A stretch of 42,460 bases of DNA from positions 1-42,460 of IMG/VR virus record IMGVR_UViG_3300047360_000019; one strand, 5' to 3'. This document shows positions 14,116-42,460 of this stretch, piece after piece; within the stretch, counting starts at the first letter, position 1, and each line of letters begins with the position of its first letter. The position numbers and the translations under genes are program-made. Source of the DNA: a virus. The notes beneath the pieces were generated by a model, which was not told the origin of the DNA, searched no databases, and saw only the letters and a list, made by a program, of their open reading frames with translations.

Positions 14116-14363
14116 GTGAAACAACAAAGAAATTAAACAACCTCCAAGATATGCTTATCGATGAATTTATTGAGCGTATCAATAGTGGTGCAGCAACCCC
14201 TAGTGACCTTAATGCTGCTCGTCAGTTACTTAAAGACAACGGAGTGCATGCAACAGTCACTAATGAAAACCCCTTAACCGAGTTAACGAAGGTATTACCC
14301 TTTGAAGACCCATCAGAAAACATAGTTAGTATCAATGAGCAGAGATTACAAAAAAGAATATAA
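14112..14363 (+). CDS. terS: Terminase small subunit (T7 gp18-like)
   Basis: 83 residues, close to T7 gp18 (89). The N-terminus is helical (ETTKKLNNLQDMLIDEFIERI). A segment typical of DNA-packaging small subunits follows (ATPSDLNAARQLLKDNGV). The small subunit recognises concatemer DNA and hands it to the large terminase. It overlaps the holin gene by 4 bp and the following HNH gene by 29 bp. Confidence 0.85.
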   Translation: MSETTKKLNNLQDMLIDEFIERINSGAATPSDLNAARQLLKDNGVHATVTNENPLTELTKVLPFEDPSENIVSINEQRLQKRI

Positions 14364-14559
14364 CAACTACCATTCCTCTGAAAAACAGAAGAAACGTAGA
14401 GCAGGACGAAATCAAGCTAGAAGATTAGCCGTTAATAAGTACGGAAAGTCAGCTTTAGCAGGAAAAGATGTTGACCATCGTGACAGAAACCCTAATAATA
14501 ATAGTAGGTCAAATCTCCGTATTCAATCCAAGAAAAATAATCGCTCACGAAATAGCTAA
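14335..14559 (+). CDS. HNH endonuclease-like protein between the terminase genes
   Basis: 74 residues, highly basic. The C-terminal half carries an HNH signature: DVDHRDRN at residues 45-52, then NNN and SNLR (residues 54-62), giving the D-H, N and N-L elements expected of the fold. The N-terminal half is Lys/Arg-rich and may bind DNA. It overlaps the small terminase gene by 29 bp and ends directly before the large terminase start. HNH proteins beside terminases take part in packaging in some phages. A free-standing homing endonuclease is the alternative. It occupies the place of the T7 Rz-like gene 18.5. Confidence 0.72.
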   Translation: MSRDYKKEYNNYHSSEKQKKRRAGRNQARRLAVNKYGKSALAGKDVDHRDRNPNNNSRSNLRIQSKKNNRSRNS

Positions 14560-17209: not shown

Positions 17210-17485
17210 ATGAAAAATACAGGTATCATTAATACTTACGACAATAACCTTCGTGGTGCATTGTTTCGCAACTTAGACGCAACAGAAACTAACAAACAAC
17301 CTAATTATCGTGGTGTTACCGAAATAGATGGTAACAAATACGACATATCAGGTTGGGTTGAGACATCTAGTATGAACTCAAAACTCAAAGGTGCTAAGTT
17401 CCTATCTATTAAATTATCACTTCAAGACAATATGCTTGACGAGGTAGTTACTCAATCACAAGCTAAAGAAGAAATTACATTCTAA
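17210..17485 (+). CDS. Small early protein, DUF736-like
   Basis: 91 residues. The pattern NTGIINTYDNNLRGALFRN, then YRGVTEIDGNKYDISGW, then LKGAKFLSIKLS resembles small phage and plasmid proteins of the DUF736 type. These are short beta-rich proteins that often sit near replication genes and have no established function. The assignment rests on pattern memory only. Its stop overlaps the next ATG by one base. Confidence 0.6.
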   Translation: MKNTGIINTYDNNLRGALFRNLDATETNKQPNYRGVTEIDGNKYDISGWVETSSMNSKLKGAKFLSIKLSLQDNMLDEVVTQSQAKEEITF

Positions 17486-17780: not shown

Positions 17781-17897
17781 ATGAATAAATCAACACTCAA
17801 TAAACTCAAGTTACGAGTATATGTAACCACGCCATCTATATGGTTTCGTAAAATCACTAATACTATCATACGCAAACTAGAAAGGTTTGTTAGATGA
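17781..17897 (+). CDS. Short basic peptide gene coupled to the amidoligase-like gene
   Basis: A 38-residue frame from ATG at 17781, reading MNKSTLNKLKLRVYVTTPSI and then a Lys/Arg-rich amphipathic end. Its stop overlaps the ATG of the amidoligase-like gene (ATGA at 17894-17897). It fills an otherwise empty gap in a tightly packed operon. It may be a real peptide or only a coupling leader. Given the neighbouring enzymes, it could also be looked at as a peptide substrate, but no evidence here shows that. Confidence 0.45.
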   Translation: MNKSTLNKLKLRVYVTTPSIWFRKITNTIIRKLERFVR

Positions 17898-19636
17898 TAT
17901 ACAGCCAAAAACGACTATCAGATGTACTACCTATAGCTTATGTCGACAATGACAACTACGAGTATATTAACGTAGATACAATAGAAGACAGCTATGTTCA
18001 CCCTGCTGACAATAACTATAACTTCAATGGTTTTGGTAATCTTCAGAGTACTGTAGAAGAAACAATCAATGTAGTTACAAAGCTACATAGGAATATGACT
18101 GACATTATGCTTAACGGTGATGATTGGGATGACCAAGACCAACTGTTACGCAACTTGTTTGTAAACCACGGTGCATCATTCCACGAACGATTACACGCTA
18201 ATGCTAACTTAGTTAACACATTATGTAGTTATATCTTCGATGAACATAACAGATATCCACTAACAGACTTCATCAAATATCCTGAAGAACCTACAAATCA
18301 ACATCAACTATATACTGATATGTTCAAACTCTTTGAGCTACACAGTAGAAATTCAGGTTATCGTAGTGTTTCTTGGTGGGTAGATATCAAAAAATACCTA
18401 AAATTCATTATAGATGTATATGAACAATATGGTGTCTTACCTATATTCAACCACGATGTTGTAGGATATATAGATAACTATGTTTCAGTACAGGGTGACT
18501 ACTATCATAAGGACTCTGACGATGTTGTATATTCAGACTACTCAAGTGAGTATGAATGGCGAGAGCATTGTAATTGGGTAGAATCAGAAAGTGATTGGAT
18601 AAATTCAGAATATCTTAGATGGTGTGATGACTGCGAAGAATACTTCCTAGAAGAAAACGATTGTAACTGTCAAGAATGTAGAGATGCTAAAGAACGCATT
18701 AACGAATACCATTGTTCACCTAAACCTGAATACAAAGGTAAACTGTCAGGTAACACAACATATAATCCACCAACAGACCTTAAAAATCTAGAACGATTTA
18801 CTATTGGTTTCGAAGTAGAAAAACGCAATATCAATGGCTATAATGACGAAGGTGACCCTGTTAATATTCAACCTTTCTTTGCAGGTTGGGAATGTGACTC
18901 AAGTTGTGGTGTAGAAGGTATATCACATATCTATTCACTAGATGACTTCACACACTTCAAACAAGATACTAACAGGTCTCATTATCTAGATAGCGAAGTC
19001 AATAGTAATTGTGGTGGTCATATCAATATTGTAGATACACGCAATCAACTACAATATTGGCATCTAACACCTTGGATGGGTATCATGTATTCATTATACA
19101 GAGGTAGACTCAACAAAACATATTGTAATCATAACAAAAAGCTTAATCCATATCAGAAAAATAACTCTCATTACAATGTTATCGCAGAAAAACGCATCCA
19201 TAGTAACACACTCTATGAATTACGTATGCCATCTGCTGTAAAGTCTATCAAACAAATACAGACTAGATATCTAATAATGCAACATATTATGCAAAGTGTA
19301 CTATCATTCATGGAAGAAGACTTCTCATATACTACATACACTTATGACCACGACAAAGAATTCTGTCCTGACCCTAATGTAAGTCATATGGTTTCAGAAT
19401 ACTTCCAAAACGAATGTTATTATGATGAGTCTGAACCTGTTATACTTAACAAACCTACATACAAACGCAGTCGTTATATCATAGAACAACTATGGCATAT
19501 ACTAACTGACATATATGACATCAAAAGTAATACACTAACAGAGATTGTGTTCTATACTTACCTATTCCAACATTGGTTAGATGGTAATATGGACATCTCT
19601 CAACCTCAATCAATCCGTAAATTCCTAGCTAACTAA
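17894..19636 (+). CDS. Amidoligase-like protein (carboxylate-amine ligase) with a zinc-binding cluster
   Basis: 580 residues. The C-terminal half shows the pattern of phage and bacterial amidoligases of the glutamine-synthetase-like fold: FTIGFEVEK (E307, E309), then WECDSSCGVEGIS, then NCGGHIN (C373-H376), then YELRMPS (E442, R444), then a helical end. These enzymes are predicted to form amide bonds between carboxylates and amines using ATP. Residues 244-262 carry five cysteines (CxxC, nine residues, CxCxxC), which looks like a zinc-binding insert. The first 240 residues are rich in Asp, Asn and Tyr and are not recognised. The next gene encodes glutamine amidotransferase and cyclotransferase domains, a partnership known for this family. 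Confidence 0.7.
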   Translation: MIYSQKRLSDVLPIAYVDNDNYEYINVDTIEDSYVHPADNNYNFNGFGNLQSTVEETINVVTKLHRNMTDIMLNGDDWDDQDQLLRNLFVNHGASFHERLHANANLVNTLCSYIFDEHNRYPLTDFIKYPEEPTNQHQLYTDMFKLFELHSRNSGYRSVSWWVDIKKYLKFIIDVYEQYGVLPIFNHDVVGYIDNYVSVQGDYYHKDSDDVVYSDYSSEYEWREHCNWVESESDWINSEYLRWCDDCEEYFLEENDCNCQECRDAKERINEYHCSPKPEYKGKLSGNTTYNPPTDLKNLERFTIGFEVEKRNINGYNDEGDPVNIQPFFAGWECDSSCGVEGISHIYSLDDFTHFKQDTNRSHYLDSEVNSNCGGHINIVDTRNQLQYWHLTPWMGIMYSLYRGRLNKTYCNHNKKLNPYQKNNSHYNVIAEKRIHSNTLYELRMPSAVKSIKQIQTRYLIMQHIMQSVLSFMEEDFSYTTYTYDHDKEFCPDPNVSHMVSEYFQNECYYDESEPVILNKPTYKRSRYIIEQLWHILTDIYDIKSNTLTEIVFYTYLFQHWLDGNMDISQPQSIRKFLAN

Positions 19637-19639
19637 TAT

Positions 19640-20623
19640 ATGTGCTTAATTATACACAAACCTGACGCAAACTCAGTAATACCTGAACACTATCTTGACA
19701 ATGCAGAACGCATCAATCCTGACGGCTTCGGTATTACTTTCTTAGACGGTGCTATACCTGAAACACATACTACTATGTGCTATGACGAAGCTCGTGCATT
19801 TATCAAACAAAATCGTCCCTTTGTTGCTCATTATCGTTATGCAACTGTAGGTGATGTCAACGAGCATAACTGCCATCCGTTCTCTTTCGGTACTAATCAT
19901 TGGCTATACAGTAATGGTACTGTTGCTGACCTAGGTGACAAAAACAAATGCGACACCAAAGTAGTAGCAGAGTATCTCAACAAGACACCTAAACAATATT
20001 GGTATATGATGCTCTCTATGACCGATACTAGATTTACTATCATCAATGACAAATGCCGTGTCAAACGCTATGGCAAATGGCATATCAAAGATGGTATATA
20101 CTACAGCAAGAACAACTGCTTCTTCAAGAAAACTGTAGGATACAATACATACTACGATTCCAAAGGTTGGGCTATAGACCCGTCCGATGCAATCAATCCT
20201 TACTACGATGACGACTTCATAGATGATGACGATTTCGAAGATAATAACTTTATTGCCGTGTATGGCACACTCAAACACGGTGAATCAAACAACGCCTTAA
20301 TATCAGGTAGTAACTTTGTAGGCACAGGCGTAACTGTAGACAAATACCCAATGTTCTATAGTATCGACAATCGTGGCTACAAAGGTATACCATATGTATA
20401 CGACTATCCTGACGAAGGGCATCAAATCCAAGTCGAAGTATATGAGGTGGATGACCCTCTAATGCGAGAAGATATCGATATACTCGAAGGTCACCCTACG
20501 CACTACACTAGGCAACAAATCGAAATACGACTAGATAACGATGAGCTAGTGACTGCGTGGTTATACTTCTCAGCAACTGACTTCGGCTACAACCAACTCG
20601 ACACCATGAAATCAGTATACTAA
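19640..20623 (+). CDS. Fusion: class-II glutamine amidotransferase domain + gamma-glutamylcyclotransferase (AIG2/GGCT) domain
   Basis: 327 residues in two domains. Residues 1 to about 190 begin MCLIIHKP, placing Cys2 as the N-terminal nucleophile of a class-II glutamine amidotransferase, followed by NPDGFGI and VAHYRYATVGDVNEHNCHPF, the usual family signature. An acidic linker (about 190-203) leads to a GGCT/AIG2 domain with the signature VYGTLKHGE (Y208-K212) and a candidate catalytic Glu at 283 (DILEGHPTHYTR). The first domain would release ammonia from glutamine or act as an amidohydrolase. The second cleaves gamma-glutamyl amides to 5-oxoproline. The gene starts 3 bp after the amidoligase-like gene, so the products probably act on one pathway. 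Confidence 0.8.
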   Translation: MCLIIHKPDANSVIPEHYLDNAERINPDGFGITFLDGAIPETHTTMCYDEARAFIKQNRPFVAHYRYATVGDVNEHNCHPFSFGTNHWLYSNGTVADLGDKNKCDTKVVAEYLNKTPKQYWYMMLSMTDTRFTIINDKCRVKRYGKWHIKDGIYYSKNNCFFKKTVGYNTYYDSKGWAIDPSDAINPYYDDDFIDDDDFEDNNFIAVYGTLKHGESNNALISGSNFVGTGVTVDKYPMFYSIDNRGYKGIPYVYDYPDEGHQIQVEVYEVDDPLMREDIDILEGHPTHYTRQQIEIRLDNDELVTAWLYFSATDFGYNQLDTMKSVY

Positions 20624-20744: not shown

Positions 20745-20949
20745 TACTAAACTTGTTACTTTGCCACACAGCCACACGACCTTCTTGCCCACTCAATTCC
20801 TCTTGCCCACTTAGTGCCTAAAAATTAGGCATTCTTATAGTACGTATTATTACTCCTAATTAAATCCAAGAGTATATATTTACAAAAATTTACATAACTT
20901 GTTAATTAATGCTTGCAAAACAATTTTAGATACGATTCACTTGGGAGAT
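20745..20949. other. Non-coding region upstream of the integrase operon with direct and inverted repeats
   Basis: About 200 bp. It contains the 11-bp direct repeat TCTTGCCCACT at 20783-20793 and 20801-20811 (18-bp period) and the hairpin TGCCTA/TAGGCA at 20815-20831. The core TGCCCACT recurs once more downstream of the integrase and tRNA genes at 22570-22577. Such repeats next to an integrase gene could be recombinase arm-binding sites or operators. I see no convincing promoter. Confidence 0.45.
20783..20811 (+). repeat. Direct repeat TCTTGCCCACT (two copies)
   Basis: Two identical 11-bp copies at 20783-20793 and 20801-20811, eighteen bases apart, upstream of the integrase gene. A partial third copy (TGCCCACT) lies at 22570-22577, past the tRNA. 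Confidence 0.8.
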
Positions 20950-21189
20950 ATGACAGCAATACACACTAAAAATAAAAATACACGGAATTTGTTTAGAGCA
21001 GTTCCTGCGAAAGCAAAACACGATTCAGTTCACGATTATACTTCCTTAGAAGGAAGAAAATTAATTGACAAAGGTTGGAAAAACTTTTGGAAAAAACGAG
21101 GTTTTGATAAGCCACCTAGAGTTTCAAACCAACATCTAGGTGAATTTGATTTACCACAACACACATGCAAAATGAGGGAGACAAAATGA
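20950..21189 (+). CDS. Small basic protein upstream of integrase, unknown
   Basis: About 79 residues from ATG at 20950, with GGGAG just ahead. A longer version from TTG at 20899 is less likely. It is strongly basic (RKLIDKGWKNFWKKRGFDKP). No family recognised. It overlaps the integrase start by 4 bp (ATGA), so the two are translationally coupled. The place is one where excisionases or small regulators are often found, but the sequence shows no helix-turn-helix that I can identify. Confidence 0.55.
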   Translation: MTAIHTKNKNTRNLFRAVPAKAKHDSVHDYTSLEGRKLIDKGWKNFWKKRGFDKPPRVSNQHLGEFDLPQHTCKMRETK

Positions 21190-22193
21190 GTGTAAGACCT
21201 AAAGGAAATAAATGGTTTGCCGATATTACTATTGACGGGCAAAGATATCGTAAAAGTAAGGATACAGAAGTTGAGGCTTTCGCATGGGAGTCAGAACTTA
21301 AACGTAGAATTACACTTGGTATACCTTATGAAGACATGCTTGAAGGTAAAACAATAGGACTGTCGTTACGAGAAGTATTAGACAAGACACATACTAGATA
21401 TTGGACTAATACAAAAAACGAAGACAATGTCATATATCTTTCGAAACAAATCGAAACTTTTTATGGCTCAAATCTTCCTATCAACTCGCTAACAACAGAT
21501 AGGATTGATGAGTATGTACTATCATTACAAAAAAAAGGATTAGCAAACTCTACTATTAATAGTAAACTAGCTATATTATCTAAGTCATTAAAATATGCTC
21601 ATCAAAGAGGATATATTAAAAATATGCCTGCTATTGAACGTCTTAGTACAGTAGGGAATGCTCGTATGAGGTTTCTTACTGAGGAAGAGGAAAAAAGTAT
21701 CGTTGATATTCTAGAATACAGAGACAGATGGCACTTTGCCCGCTTCTTTGAGTTTTCAATAGATACAGGACTACGTCCTTCCGAGGCTAGAGACCTACAC
21801 AAGAAAACGTTAAGAGAAGACCCTGACTTAGGTTGGATAATAGACCTAAGACGGACAAAGACAATGGTTTCTCGTACAATCCCATTGACAGATAGAGCTT
21901 ATAACGCTTTTACAACTATATCCGAAAATACGTTTCCTTTTTCTAGGTTTACAAAACAAGAAATAAGAAAATGTTGGGCTCTAGTAAGAGAAGAACTAGC
22001 TGAAAATGACCCTGAGTTTGTTTTTTATATGACAAGACACACCTGTGCGTCACGTTTAGTTCAACGTAATGTTCCTCTTCAAATTGTAAAAGAATATATG
22101 GGACATAAAACGTTTGACATGACTCTTAGATACGCTAAGTTAGCCCCTAAGAACATGTTAGATGCAAAACTAGCACTTGAATCAATTAACTAA
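21186..22193 (+). CDS. int: Tyrosine site-specific integrase
   Basis: 335 residues from ATG at 21186, chosen because GAGGGAG lies at 21174-21180. An upstream in-frame ATG at 21165 lacks such a site. An N-terminal arm-binding part and a SAM-like core-binding domain (about 60-155) precede the catalytic domain. Catalytic residues visible: R197 (TGLRPSEA), R284 followed by H285 (MTRHTCASRL), H307 (MGHKTFD) and nucleophile Y316 (LRYAKL). A Lys in RRTKTMVSRTIPL fits the beta-hairpin lysine. The usual His of the HxxR box is Tyr here, a common variant. The adjacent tRNA-Leu gene suggests integration into a host tRNA gene, as reported for pelagiphages. Confidence 0.93.
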   Translation: MSVRPKGNKWFADITIDGQRYRKSKDTEVEAFAWESELKRRITLGIPYEDMLEGKTIGLSLREVLDKTHTRYWTNTKNEDNVIYLSKQIETFYGSNLPINSLTTDRIDEYVLSLQKKGLANSTINSKLAILSKSLKYAHQRGYIKNMPAIERLSTVGNARMRFLTEEEEKSIVDILEYRDRWHFARFFEFSIDTGLRPSEARDLHKKTLREDPDLGWIIDLRRTKTMVSRTIPLTDRAYNAFTTISENTFPFSRFTKQEIRKCWALVREELAENDPEFVFYMTRHTCASRLVQRNVPLQIVKEYMGHKTFDMTLRYAKLAPKNMLDAKLALESIN

Positions 22194-22415: not shown

Positions 22416-22567
22416 GGTGACGAAAAAGCGGGAAATGAGACATGCGAGGGTGGTGGAATGGTAGACACATCAGACTTAAAATCTGAAGCCTGTAAAGGCG
22501 TAGGGGTTCAAGTCCCCTTCCTCGTACCAAACCTAAGTTTGGACTTAAAATCCGTTTTTTCGTCACC
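22416..22567 (+). repeat. Inverted repeat flanking the tRNA gene
   Basis: GGTGACGAAAAAGCGG (22416-22431) and CCGTTTTTTCGTCACC (22552-22567) are complementary over 15 of 16 bases and enclose the whole tRNA gene. In RNA they could close a long stem with the tRNA in the loop. In DNA they could be recombinase-binding arms. An additional GGTGAC at 22405-22410 precedes the left arm. A short hairpin, CCAAAC/GTTTGG (22527-22542), overlaps the tRNA 3' end. Confidence 0.8.
22444..22529 (+). tRNA. tRNA-Leu (anticodon UAA)
   Basis: An 86-base class II tRNA with encoded CCA. Acceptor GCGAGGG pairs with TCCTCGT, with two G-U pairs. The D arm has the GGTGGAATGGTAGACAC pattern of leucine tRNAs. The anticodon stem TCAGA/TCTGA closes loop CTTAAAA with anticodon TAA. 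A long variable arm GCC/GGC and a T arm AGGGG/CCCCT with TTCAAGT complete it. It reads UUA, a frequent codon in AT-rich genes. All arms look intact. It probably also contains or resembles the phage attachment core, because an integrase gene lies 250 bp upstream. Confidence 0.95.
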
Positions 22568-22656: not shown

Positions 22657-25074
22657 GTGCCTTATACCCCTATGTTATCACAACACGAATTAAATAAAGA
22701 TATGACCAAACTTGGTGTCGGTAGATACCAATCGAAAGTTGAGTCTGCTCGACAAAGAGATGCTGAATTACAAACTCAATATGGTCAGCGTCTTATGCGT
22801 GGTGCTTTACCAAAACTATATAAAGGTATTGAAGATTGGCAAAAGAGTATAACAAACCCCAACAAGGCTCGTTATCAAATAGATTGTATACCCCTAGACC
22901 CTAAAGTCATTGCCTTCATAAGTATCAAAGCAATCTTAGACAGTATTACAAAAAAGAAACCTTTGAGCGGTGTAGCTCATAACTTAGGTGCTCGTATGGA
23001 AGATGAGTTACGTTGTAGGTTTTTAGTTGAAGCAAACCCTAATAAAGGTAAAGGGATTCTTCTTGGGGCAGTAAAACGTAAAGGGGAAAAACAAAAAGTT
23101 AGACACGTACGTTCCTCAATGAAACACGAAACTCAAAAAGGTTTAATGGAAGAATGGAAACCTTGGGCACATAGAGACAAATTAAATATGGGCTTACAGA
23201 TGACTGAGCTCGTCCGTGTGACCACAGGAATCATTGAATATGTCTACATACTCGGCTCAGGTAAAAAACGTCCTACACGTTATGTAGCCCCCACAAAAGA
23301 GACAATGGAGTGGATTGAGAAGTATAATGATTATAAAGAATTTATTGAGCCCTTTTGGTTACCAACAGTAGACCTACCTAAGAATTGGACAAATGTTTGG
23401 GATGGAGGTTACGACCAAAGTAATACTTACTTACCTAAAGTACCATTCATAAAAAGCCCCAACATGGAATACCTACGTTCCATCAAAGGTGCACTTCCTG
23501 AACCTATGGAAGCTTGTAACTTAATTCAACAAACACCATGGACAGTTAACACTCGTGTACTATCATCAATGAAGTGGTGTTGGGAAAACAATCTAGTAGT
23601 TGGTGGGTTACCTAGTCGTGAAAATGAAGACCTCCCTCCTGTACCTATTGATTTTAAAGAAAACAAAGAAGCTAACACAGAATGGCGAAGACAGGCTGCC
23701 AAAATCTACAGAGGACGTGTAGCCACGATGTCACGAAGATTGTTAGTAGCAAAAATTTTATATATAGCAGATAAGTTAGCAGGTAATCGTTTCTTTTACC
23801 CTTCTCAATTAGATTTCAGAGGACGTATTTATAACATTCCTGCGTTCCTGGGTATTCAAGGTCCTGATATAAGTAGAGGATTAATTCAATTTAATCGACC
23901 TGAAAAGATTAAGAAGGATTCAGATGTTAGATGGTTAGCAATACAAGGAGCAAACACCTTTGGAAATGATAAATTATCACTTGATGAAAGAGTAAACTTT
24001 GCCAACCACTATACAAAAACTGCCATCAAGATTGCTAGTGACCCTACTACGCATTTAGAATGGACAGAAACTGATGAACCATTTCAATTCTTAGCTTGGT
24101 GTTTTGAGTGGGCACAACTTCATAACACAGGAAAGTTAAATAGTTGTCTTCCTGTAAACATGGATGCCTCTAACAATGGGTTACAGATTCTCAGTATGTT
24201 AATGCGTGATGAGCATGGGGCTTATTCAACTAATGTATTACAAACAGATGAGCCTCAAGATTTATACAGAGTTGTTTCTGATAAAGTCATTGAAAAACTT
24301 AGAACAGAAAATACAGAGATAGGTAGAAAATGGTTATCGTTCGGCATTGATAGAAAACTTGCTAAACGTCCTACGATGGTATTCCCTTATGGAGGTACAT
24401 TCTACAGCTGTCGTGCCTATGTTGATGAGTGGTATCAAGATAAACTTAAAAGTAAAAGAGTAACTAACCCATTCTCTGAAATGGAAAGATATACAGTCAC
24501 AGGCTACTTAAGTAAATTAACATGGCAGTCCATCAATGAAGTACTAGATAAACCTACTCAATGTATGACTTGGTTAAAACAAGTAGCGAAACTTATTGCT
24601 AAAACTAATCAAGGTATTCAATGGACAACACCAACAGGATTTCCTGTACAACAGGACTACAAAAAAACAATCGCCCAAACAGTTACTACCAAACTTGGAG
24701 GACAAGGAACTCATATTAAATGGCACGCAGAGAGTGATGAAATATCCTCCAAGAAAGCACAACAAGGTATCTCCCCCAATTTTGTGCACTCACTCGATGC
24801 CTCTGCCTTAACTAAATCTGTAATCAAAGCTAACGAAGAAGGAATATATGACTTCGCTATGATACACGATAGCTATGGTACACACGCTAATAAATGTGAT
24901 GTATTTAGTAAAGTTTTAAGAGAATCTTATTATGAGCTTTTTAGTGTTGACCTCCTTCAAGATTTCCTTAGACAAGTAACAATACAACACCCACATATAG
25001 ATTTTCCTGAAATACCTACTTATGGAAACGCAGACATATCACAAGTTCTGCAGAGTAAGTATTTCTTTTCATAA
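22657..25074 (+). CDS. T7-type single-subunit DNA-directed RNA polymerase
   Basis: 805 residues from GTG at 22657, with GAGGG at 22642-22646; ATG at 22672 is the alternative. T7 RNAP has 883. Polymerase motifs are clear: D503 in motif A (NMDASNNGLQ), K570, R571 and Y578 in motif B (DRKLAKRPTMVFPYGG), and D738 in motif C (ISPNFVHSLDASAL ... IHDSYGTHA). These match T7 D537, K631, Y639 and D812. The enzyme transcribes middle and late phage genes from its own promoters, which I could not define with confidence. In this genome it comes after the early module and the integrase. Confidence 0.97.
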   Translation: MPYTPMLSQHELNKDMTKLGVGRYQSKVESARQRDAELQTQYGQRLMRGALPKLYKGIEDWQKSITNPNKARYQIDCIPLDPKVIAFISIKAILDSITKKKPLSGVAHNLGARMEDELRCRFLVEANPNKGKGILLGAVKRKGEKQKVRHVRSSMKHETQKGLMEEWKPWAHRDKLNMGLQMTELVRVTTGIIEYVYILGSGKKRPTRYVAPTKETMEWIEKYNDYKEFIEPFWLPTVDLPKNWTNVWDGGYDQSNTYLPKVPFIKSPNMEYLRSIKGALPEPMEACNLIQQTPWTVNTRVLSSMKWCWENNLVVGGLPSRENEDLPPVPIDFKENKEANTEWRRQAAKIYRGRVATMSRRLLVAKILYIADKLAGNRFFYPSQLDFRGRIYNIPAFLGIQGPDISRGLIQFNRPEKIKKDSDVRWLAIQGANTFGNDKLSLDERVNFANHYTKTAIKIASDPTTHLEWTETDEPFQFLAWCFEWAQLHNTGKLNSCLPVNMDASNNGLQILSMLMRDEHGAYSTNVLQTDEPQDLYRVVSDKVIEKLRTENTEIGRKWLSFGIDRKLAKRPTMVFPYGGTFYSCRAYVDEWYQDKLKSKRVTNPFSEMERYTVTGYLSKLTWQSINEVLDKPTQCMTWLKQVAKLIAKTNQGIQWTTPTGFPVQQDYKKTIAQTVTTKLGGQGTHIKWHAESDEISSKKAQQGISPNFVHSLDASALTKSVIKANEEGIYDFAMIHDSYGTHANKCDVFSKVLRESYYELFSVDLLQDFLRQVTIQHPHIDFPEIPTYGNADISQVLQSKYFFS

Positions 25075-25101: not shown

Positions 25102-25686
25102 ATGGCTACAATAGTAACAACACCAAAGGGTAAAGCAATTTACCCACGAATAGATACACCTGATACCAAGTTTGACCCTAATGGGGTTTATACTTGTAAA
25201 TTACATATATCTGAAGATGAGTTTAACGCATTTTCTAAAAAGGTAACAGATGTAGTAACCAAAGCATACGATGATGAATGTAGGATTAAAGGTAAGAAGC
25301 TTAAGGTTTCTGAAAATAAACCTATTCGCATTACTGCTGAAGGTGACTACGAAATATATGCGAAGCAAGTAGCTAAAAGAGATACACGAAAAGGTGTTAT
25401 CGAATTTAGTGTTCCTGCTTTTGATTCCAAAGGACAAAAGATAGACCCAACCCCTGCTGTTGGAAGTGGTTCAATCGTTAAGATGAGCTGTGAAATCTAT
25501 ACTTGGTTCAGCGATATGCAAGGGTTCGGATATACCTTGCGTTTGAAAGCAGTACAAATCCTTGAATTAATTGAATATCAAAATGGAAGTGCAAATGCAT
25601 ACGGATTTGATTCAGAAGAAGAGGGCTACGTAACGGATGGAGAATCGTTGGATACAGCGTTCGAAACCGAGCAAGCCCCGTTCTAG
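25102..25686 (+). CDS. Single-stranded DNA-binding protein (T7 gp2.5-like)
   Basis: 194 residues (T7 gp2.5 has 232). The N-terminal part is an OB-fold-like region opening IVTTPKGKAIYPRIDTPDTK. The C-terminus is an acidic tail ending in Phe (DSEEEGYVTDGESLDTAFE, then APF), the feature by which gp2.5-type proteins contact DNA polymerase and primase-helicase. It lies between RNA polymerase and endonuclease I as in T7. A purine-rich stretch (AAAAGGCAAAAG) ahead of the ATG may be a weak ribosome binding site. Confidence 0.88.
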   Translation: MATIVTTPKGKAIYPRIDTPDTKFDPNGVYTCKLHISEDEFNAFSKKVTDVVTKAYDDECRIKGKKLKVSENKPIRITAEGDYEIYAKQVAKRDTRKGVIEFSVPAFDSKGQKIDPTPAVGSGSIVKMSCEIYTWFSDMQGFGYTLRLKAVQILELIEYQNGSANAYGFDSEEEGYVTDGESLDTAFETEQAPF

Positions 25687-40724: not shown

Positions 40725-42460
40725 ATGCCTACAATTCAAGACCCATCAGGGAATACCCCAACGACTCTCCAAGAGTCAGTAAACATAGTACTTTCCGTTC
40801 TCGGAGAAGCACCTGTAAATACACTTCAAGGGACTACAGCGTCTCTAGCATTAAATATAATTGATGAGGTAAATACAGATGTACAGAGTAAAGGATGGTA
40901 TTTTAATCAATTTGTAACAGGAGGTCCTGTAAATTTGTTTAGCCCTACAGCTAACATAATTATATACCCTTCTAATTCTAATAATGATTGGCATAGTAGT
41001 ATCCCTGAGGAAGCTAGACGTTATATTACAATTAGAGCTGCTCGGATAGCTCATACACGATTAATAGGTACGGAAGAAAATTTTAAATTTACGTACCAAG
41101 AAGAATTAGCTTCGTTAGCTATTTTACAACAAACTCATGTACGAAACTCAGATAGTGTATTAAGTTTTAGTTCCTACCCAACTGAATTAAGAGAATTAGG
41201 TATAGATGAATTTCTGTTCCTCCAAGGTAATTTAGAAGAAAAATTAGGTAACTTAAAGTTAGCTCAAAATATTAAAGAGCAGACTATTCTTACAAAGCAA
41301 GCTGAAAAGCTAGATGAGGAAATTGATTTATTACAAGCACAAGACCTCAAGGTACAAGAAGAGACTGATTTATTACAATCTCAAGACCTCAAAGTACAAT
41401 CTGAGACAGATGTAATAGATGCTCAGAAGTTAAAGACTTTAGAAGAAGTAACTCTAACTATAGAGCAGAAGAATAAAATAGCTGAAGAATCTAAATTAAT
41501 TACTGCTCAGGAACTTAAGGTAGACGCAGAGACAGCCACAGAAGGCTCAAGAAAGACAGACATAGAAGCGGATACCACACTCAAGGGTCAGCAAGGACGT
41601 CTTGTATATGCACAGGCTACAGACGTAGCAGCAGACACAACTTTAAAAGGTAAACAAGGTAGTCTCGTAGATGCACAAGCAACAGATGTCGCTGCTGATA
41701 CTACGTTAAAAGGTAAACAAGGTTCTTTGGTAGACGCTCAAGCTACAGATGTCGCTGCTGATACTACGCTGAAGGGTAAGCAAGGAAGTCTTGTAGATGC
41801 ACAGGCAGACGATGTGACAGCCGCTAAAAATCTAAAGATTAAACAAGCTATAGACGTAGTAGCTGATGTCACACTCAAAGGTAAACAAGGCAGTCTTGTA
41901 GACGCACAAGCTACAGATGTTGCCGCAGATACTACGTTGAAAGGCAAACAGGGCTCTCTCGTTGACGCACAGGCTACTGATGTAGCAGCAGATACCACCC
42001 TCAAAGGCAAACAAGGTTCTTTAGTTGACGCACAGGCTATAGACGTAGCAGCAGACACAACCCTAAAAGGTCAGCAAGGACGTCTTGTATATGCCCAAGC
42101 TACGGACGTGGCTGCTGATACAACTCTCAAAGGCAAGCAAGGTAGTCTTGTAGATGCACAAACATCTAAAACAGACGCTGAGAAAGCTCTTATAAATGAC
42201 CAAGAAGCTAAGACAGTAGCTGAAACAGAGTTACTAGAGGCTCAGAAAACTAAGTTAACTGAAGAAACAGCTTTCATGATAACCGAAGAAAAGGATTATA
42301 ATGATAATATTGGAGTTGCTATAACTACAGCAGGGGGTACTATAAAAAGCTACAAAGATTACAGACCTGAAATGCGAATAATGGGTTTCCAAGAGACTAC
42401 ATTTAATACCTTACCTGCTTACAAAAAGAAAGAATTATTATACGATGCACAATCTATGCG
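40725..42460 (+). CDS. Tail tubular protein A (T7 gp11-like), N-terminal gp11 domain and repetitive linker; continues at the left contig end
   Basis: ATG at 40725, open to the end of the window (578 codons), continuing at about position 418 on the left. Residues 15 to about 165 form a gp11-type adaptor domain (LQESVNIVLSVLGEAPVNTL ... VQSKGWYFN), matching T7 gp11. A helical linker follows, with 14-residue units (201-242) and an array of 21-residue units (277-479). A second gp11-type domain lies in the left-end part. The full product would be about 777 residues. No stop codon or frameshift interrupts it. T7 gp11 forms a 12-fold adaptor ring, so a two-domain chain could build the same ring from six copies. 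The linker may project from the tail. Confidence 0.85.
   Translation, partial: MPTIQDPSGNTPTTLQESVNIVLSVLGEAPVNTLQGTTASLALNIIDEVNTDVQSKGWYFNQFVTGGPVNLFSPTANIIIYPSNSNNDWHSSIPEEARRYITIRAARIAHTRLIGTEENFKFTYQEELASLAILQQTHVRNSDSVLSFSSYPTELRELGIDEFLFLQGNLEEKLGNLKLAQNIKEQTILTKQAEKLDEEIDLLQAQDLKVQEETDLLQSQDLKVQSETDVIDAQKLKTLEEVTLTIEQKNKIAEESKLITAQELKVDAETATEGSRKTDIEADTTLKGQQGRLVYAQATDVAADTTLKGKQGSLVDAQATDVAADTTLKGKQGSLVDAQATDVAADTTLKGKQGSLVDAQADDVTAAKNLKIKQAIDVVADVTLKGKQGSLVDAQATDVAADTTLKGKQGSLVDAQATDVAADTTLKGKQGSLVDAQAIDVAADTTLKGQQGRLVYAQATDVAADTTLKGKQGSLVDAQTSKTDAEKALINDQEAKTVAETELLEAQKTKLTEETAFMITEEKDYNDNIGVAITTAGGTIKSYKDYRPEMRIMGFQETTFNTLPAYKKKELLYDAQSM
41325..41450 (+). repeat. Three 42-bp (14-residue) repeats in the tail tubular A linker
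   Basis: Units at 41325-41366, 41367-41408 and 41409-41450. The first two encode DLLQAQDLKVQEET and DLLQSQDLKVQSET; the third is diverged. The 14-residue length equals two heptads, consistent with a coiled coil. Confidence 0.85.
41553..42161 (+). repeat. Tandem array of 63-bp (21-residue) repeats in tail tubular protein A
   Basis: Nine 63-bp units start at 41553, 41616, 41679, 41742, 41847, 41910, 41973, 42036 and 42099. One shorter diverged 42-bp unit lies at 41805-41846. The peptide unit is ATDVAADTTLKGKQGSLVDAQ (21 residues). The peptide is well conserved while codons vary strongly between units (for example GATGTCGCTGCTGAT versus GACGTAGCAGCAGAC), so selection appears to act on the protein. 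Confidence 0.95.
41960..42460. repeat. Contig-end overlap, right copy
   Basis: This aligns with 1-417. Compared with the left copy it has 84 extra bases (28 codons) around 42159-42242, encoding TSKTDAEKALINDQEAKTVA and a few more residues. It supports joining the two ends into one continuous gene, and shows that at least two length variants were assembled. Confidence 0.85.

Follow-up and report, generated by a model that had tools for sequence, protein, structure and literature searches.

Our computational analysis of a viral DNA record of 42,460 nucleotides (the source record in its full length, hereafter the window) revealed two adjacent genes which probably act as one module that, early in infection, writes and edits an amide of the gamma-glutamyl type in the cytoplasm of the host. 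The first gene codes for an amidoligase-like protein of 580 aa (P0001, positions 17894-19636, plus strand), and the second for a 327-aa fusion of a class-II glutamine amidotransferase (GATase-II) domain and a GGACT domain (P0002, 19640-20623, plus strand), with 3 bp between the stop at 19636 and the start at 19640. The computation established the domain identities, the intact active sites, the near-obligate pairing of the two genes, the exchange of the ligase and the position of the genes.

Profile searches of the window revealed a T7-like gene content, with genes for terminase, tail and internal virion proteins, a single-subunit RNA polymerase, primase/helicase and DNA polymerase. Along the contig the terminase is followed by a few small ORFs, the P0001/P0002 pair, a tyrosine integrase (21165-22193, plus strand; PF00589, E 1e-23) and the T7-type RNA polymerase (22657-25074, plus strand; phrog_414, E 2e-222). 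Judged by gene order alone, the module should thus lie at the presumed early end of the genome. The first-pass annotation had described it as the main part of the early module of a T7-like phage ahead of the RNA polymerase gene; the T7-like content and the position were borne out, and the early timing is a reading of gene order alone. Sigma-70-type sites showed no excess between 16000 and 22700 (30, versus 29.2 in shuffled sequence). A small ORF with an uncertain TTG start lies 3' of the module (20899-21189, plus strand) and has counterparts in loci L005, L006, L007, L078, L079, L086, L087 and L088.

Several further features of the window were recorded. A complete tRNA-Leu(UAA) gene (22444-22529, plus strand) lies between the integrase and RNA polymerase genes, is a possible attachment site and could name the host. 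The small early ORF at 17210-17485 is akin to families of single-strand DNA binding proteins (phrog_18154, E 1e-8) and is distinct from the gp2.5-like protein at 25102. A small HNH-nuclease-like ORF (14335-14559) separates the genes of the small and large terminase subunits, which is not the usual T7 arrangement. The tail protein gene, running off the contig end (40725-42460 and 1-192), carries an array of 21-aa repeats encoded by 63-bp units, e.g., TDVAADTTLKGKQGSLVDAQA, which are present at both contig ends. The two ends share 230 bases at 98% identity (188-417 and 42231-42460), an end overlap that marks the genome as circular or terminally redundant; its few mismatches may come from the repeat array or from assembly.

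The identification of P0001 required profile-profile and fold comparison. Direct scans of Pfam, PHROGs and NCBIfam returned no match for the protein, PF12224 (Amidoligase_2) matched neither P0001 nor the window at its cut-off, and a PDB sequence search with the ligase profile gave only noise. A search of viral contigs with the P0001/ctfjg026 pair as query provided 70 loci; scans with exact single-protein patterns, which were probably too strict, found none, and alignments succeeded. Against the 70-member family PF12224 matched three proteins at E up to 1 (best 0.0049). The family profile, in turn, aligned to Pfam-positive Amidoligase_2 phage proteins with an hhalign probability of 96.4% (E 1e-9) and to ligases of the MEP401/Marvin/ctgrD200 kind with 94.3%. 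When the AlphaFold model of P0001 was compared with the PDB by Foldseek, glutamine synthetases led the matches, followed by GmaS, YbdK and Dop, with modest E-values (best 1.4e-3), and among viral models the named matches were mostly annotated as amidoligase, including those of phages tf, CW02 and Salgado. The ligase domain (residues about 290-480; 18761-19333, plus strand) is mostly modelled at pLDDT 90 or more, and is preceded by a variable N-terminus, much of it modelled at low confidence, and a Cys cluster, and followed by a helical C-terminus. Fifteen residues are invariant in all 70 aligned ligases (G305, E307, E309, K310, E333, D335, S337, E341, G374, G375, H376, R405, E442, R444 and R458), including an ExE motif (307, 309), the acidic residues E333, D335 and E341, H376 and an ExR motif (442, 444), a pattern which we take to match the residues that bind metal and phosphate in glutamine synthetase. 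Since profile comparison, fold search and invariant residues agree in this respect, P0001 can be placed, by sequence and model, in the amidoligase superfamily outside the coverage of PF12224. The first-pass annotation had called it amidoligase-like, and this call stood despite the direct library misses; profile support for the amidoligase fold, named beforehand as its test, was positive with the family profile and negative with PF12224.

P0002 was more readily recognised. Its second domain (residues about 204-315; 20249-20584, plus strand) matched the GGACT family PF06094 with 73.3 bits versus a cut-off of 22.8 (E 3e-20), and carries a YGTLK motif (208-212) and the putative catalytic Glu E283. 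The first domain, with the Ntn fold of GATase-II (residues about 1-160; 19640-20119, plus strand), scored 22.8 bits with GATase_4 (PF13230), 0.2 below the cut-off of 23. The AlphaFold model of P0002 (mean pLDDT 85.8) resembled mouse and human GGACT most closely (E 5e-9 to 9e-8) and also matched the glutaminase domain of GlmS (E 2e-6). These results confirm the fusion of GATase-II and cyclotransferase that had been proposed from the reading frames 3 bp after the ligase. All 136 homologues share the residues C2, R66, T69, H79, N92, G93 and D105 of the GATase domain, and all 123 that have a GGACT domain keep E283, so that both active sites are predicted to be intact in every homologue carrying the respective domain; the loss of catalytic residues in relatives, considered in the first-pass annotation, is thus seen neither in the fusion nor in the ligase. 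The last domain had been named a gamma-glutamylcyclotransferase, and the cyclotransferase family holds, with the correction that its nearest solved relatives are GGACT enzymes, GGCT and ChaC2 ranking lower in the fold comparison. A direct role in glutathione metabolism is less likely for this reason. Human GGACT (3jub/3juc) and the mouse protein (1vkb) share the fold, the YGTLK motif and the catalytic Glu with P0002, and differ in standing alone, whereas in P0002 the domain is fused behind an Ntn GATase.

The ligase-fusion pair was found in more than 100 other phage sequences. Among 143 loci with a GATase gene, 137 have an amidoligase, always on the same strand and upstream in 132; in the six unpaired loci the GATase gene begins no more than 1.21 kb from the upstream contig end. 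Some of these loci had been retrieved by a ligase query; of the 80 retrieved with the GATase/GGACT query alone, 74 were paired, the exceptions being the same six end-clipped loci. The two genes stand together far more often than chance would allow. The loci examined hold 128 fused GATase-GGACT ORFs, which rules out the fusion as a curiosity of the window phage. The fusion is common in phages and not specific to the window, because the pairing holds so widely, even where an Amidoligase_2 replaces the ligase in one clade. The first-pass annotation had singled out the fusion as notable, a view that did not survive these counts, the same arrangement being already present in the GenBank phages C75C1 (OQ984151) and ctfjg026 (MW202828).

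An Amidoligase_2-kind ligase (C75C1 and MEP401 type) is present in 24 loci. In an unrooted tree of the GATase proteins, calculated by a quick method, the loci of this kind form one supported clade (SH-aLRT 99), outside which stands the distant outlier MEP401 (L004), and the clade groups with the fusions of T7-like phages. On this grouping, the fusion was kept while its ligase partner was exchanged. A third conserved gene in the neighbourhood was sought (acceptor peptide, ATP-grasp, transporter), and none was common to all loci. In L049, L059, L061, L065 and L074, two P0001-type amidoligase genes flank or adjoin one GATase-only gene. In a search of 84,980 genomes of bacteria and archaea, full-length fusions occurred in at least three loci, a lower bound because candidates were picked with short patterns. 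One of the three, on a Campylobacteraceae contig, sits among cellular genes; this fusion (L166:8001-8822) is without a detected amidoligase and has an Eco57I/MmeI-like methylase gene and a uracil-DNA glycosylase gene as neighbours. A lysogeny-specific role of the module was also considered and is weakened, as an integrase occurs in only 5 of 35 compared records.

The two proteins diverge fast. In relatives that share 74-81% terminase identity with the window, P0001 is 27-36% and P0002 44-48% identical, and among close relatives the ligase domain retains 47% identity versus 17% for residues 1-190. Just ahead of the ligase domain P0001 carries the Cys cluster C244-x2-C247 ... C257-x-C259-x2-C262 (18623-18679, plus strand), read from the sequence, which may be a zinc ribbon. 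A Cys-rich stretch stands in the same place in MEP401, Marvin and ctgrD200; in most of the long ligases close to P0001 the CxxC...CxxC motif is incomplete or degenerate, and in 68 of 74 loci with short ligases it is the fusion that carries it, at its C-terminus. As the motif sits on the ligase or, with short ligases, on the fusion, it could represent a recruiting module carried by one or the other partner. The order terminase, ligase, fusion, small ORF, integrase and RNA polymerase is conserved in L079 and L086, and in L078, L087 and L088 as far as these loci reach. In the T7-like loci L009, L076, L080 and L085 the pair occupies the same place on the strand opposite to terminase and polymerase, and this inversion suggests that there it forms a transcription unit of its own.

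Comparison with known phages places the module as a stripped-down, rearranged relative of the 'peptidoglycan modification cassette' of phiEco32, LUZ24 and RIO-1, in agreement with the kinship to amidoligase/GATase/GGCT clusters suggested earlier. In phiEco32, LUZ24/PaP3 and RIO-1, genes for amidoligase, GATase-II and GGCT/AIG2 are clustered outside the structural region and near replication genes; amidoligase and GATase, with GGCT in most, are present in phiEco32, PaP3/LUZ24, RIO-1 and OM43 phages, and the window combines all three activities as well. In contrast to the separate GATase and GGCT genes of the phiEco32-type cassette, the window holds two genes only, and it is without the COOH-NH2 ligase (PF14395) and the ATP-grasp protein of that cassette. 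PF14395 matched the phiEco32 and PaP3 controls and gave no match in the 33 remaining records, the window among them. An ATP-grasp query (PaP3 orf43) matched PaP3, phiEco32 and Vibrio phage 1.293 and none of the other 33 records; a RimK model was too weak for this search and missed even the controls. OM43 phage MEP401, mycobacteriophage Marvin and podovirus ctgrD200 share with the window a Cys-rich stretch joined to an amidoligase with the GATase-II gene directly after it, and in ctgrD200, which has a T7-type RNA polymerase gene, the pair also lies between integrase and polymerase; they differ in a GATase without a GGACT domain and in a ligase more distant from P0001. Marvin gp105 (L159:2836-4197) carries the annotation of a glutamine amidotransferase domain protein but resembles a Cys-rich amidoligase, and gp106 is the GATase. 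Phages C75C1 and ctfjg026 combine the GATase-GGACT fusion with a same-strand amidoligase, but a Pfam-recognised Amidoligase_2 replaces the P0001 type in C75C1, and in ctfjg026 the fusion has a Cys motif at its C-terminus. EgtA and EgtC of the ergothioneine pathway likewise combine a GS-type gamma-glutamyl ligase with an amidohydrolase of the class-II GATase fold. The EgtC model TIGR03442 was the top, weak NCBIfam match of P0002 (E 0.015; 14.7 versus a cut-off of 218.65 bits), and no other Egt genes were seen.

In the proposed mechanism, P0001 would act as an ATP-dependent ligase that activates a carboxylate as acyl phosphate and joins it to an amine; in characterised relatives this carboxylate is usually the gamma-carboxyl of glutamate. 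The GATase-II domain of P0002, with its N-terminal Cys, would cleave glutamine or a gamma-glutamyl amide and thereby supply ammonia or strip off the glutamyl group, and the GGACT domain would free a gamma-glutamyl group from its amine as 5-oxoproline. Early in infection, the two proteins together would make and edit amides of the gamma-glutamyl type in the host cytoplasm. We infer the substrate, reaction directions, timing, target and benefit, and an editing role of P0002 is not compelled, since a GATase-II domain may simply serve as a glutaminase. We lean towards a target that is host-specific and macromolecular, either a protein or an envelope precursor, because the ligase changes most rapidly at its N-terminus and a Cys-rich module is repeatedly present on one partner or the other.

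The envelope could provide one way of realising this write/edit activity, and we regard it as possible, though doubtful, that the module modifies peptidoglycan precursors at their gamma-linked glutamate and thereby hampers adsorption, injection or lysis by other phages (superinfection exclusion). Peptidoglycan stems contain gamma-linked D-Glu. The three activities are the same as in the phiEco32/LUZ24/RIO-1 cassettes; in the literature, the genes of these phages and of OM43 phages are assigned a peptidoglycan-modifying role against superinfection, with Iyer et al. 2009 and Hardies et al. 2013 cited as the source for the phiEco32-type cassettes. The cited role is, however, itself a prediction, the COOH-NH2 ligase and ATP-grasp genes are absent from the window and 32 compared records, and the scarcity of integrases speaks against a tie to lysogeny. 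An equally tentative possibility is that the ligase adds a glutamyl-type group to a host protein or a defence component, in protein tagging or counter-defence, and that the fusion removes or limits it. The module at the front of the genome and the fast-varying ligase N-terminus are consistent with this, the GS-fold relatives PafA and Dop modify proteins, Dop being among the fold matches of P0001, and the GGACT family cleaves gamma-glutamyl-epsilon-lysine. Against it, the solved GGACT acts on free gamma-glutamylamines and is not known to act on intact proteins. A bolder formulation, which we hold more speculative still, is a minimal two-protein write/erase system of phages that, early in infection, would attach a gamma-glutamyl-type amide to one particular host macromolecule and remove it again; its ligases would be interchangeable, its eraser fusion conserved and its recognition region fast-evolving, and it would serve takeover or counter-defence. 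It seems unlikely that the two are auxiliary metabolic genes, serving phage replication by a change in the pools of glutamine, glutamate or ammonia: a nitrogen-metabolism role has been proposed for phage ZRK32 with similar genes (PMC10945688) and the GATase-II domain is able to act as a glutaminase, but this would leave the strict ligase pairing, the partner exchange, the GGACT fusion, the fast divergence and the variable N-terminus unexplained. Finally, that P0001 is an unrelated virus protein standing by chance beside the fusion is highly improbable, for its missing match in three family libraries is outweighed by profile comparison, fold search, catalytic pattern and conserved pairing, which largely refute it.

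Amidoligase cassettes have been noted in phages for more than 15 years, and the literature searched held neither a test of their chemistry or role nor biochemistry on any family member. P0001 defines a ligase family missed by Pfam, PHROGs and NCBIfam. The chemistry of the write/edit module is predicted with fair confidence, whereas any target or benefit is conjecture. The pair stays together across unrelated phages despite the exchange of the ligase, and the module reduces the question to two proteins, a predicted ATP-dependent maker of a gamma-glutamyl-type amide and a predicted releaser of 5-oxoproline.
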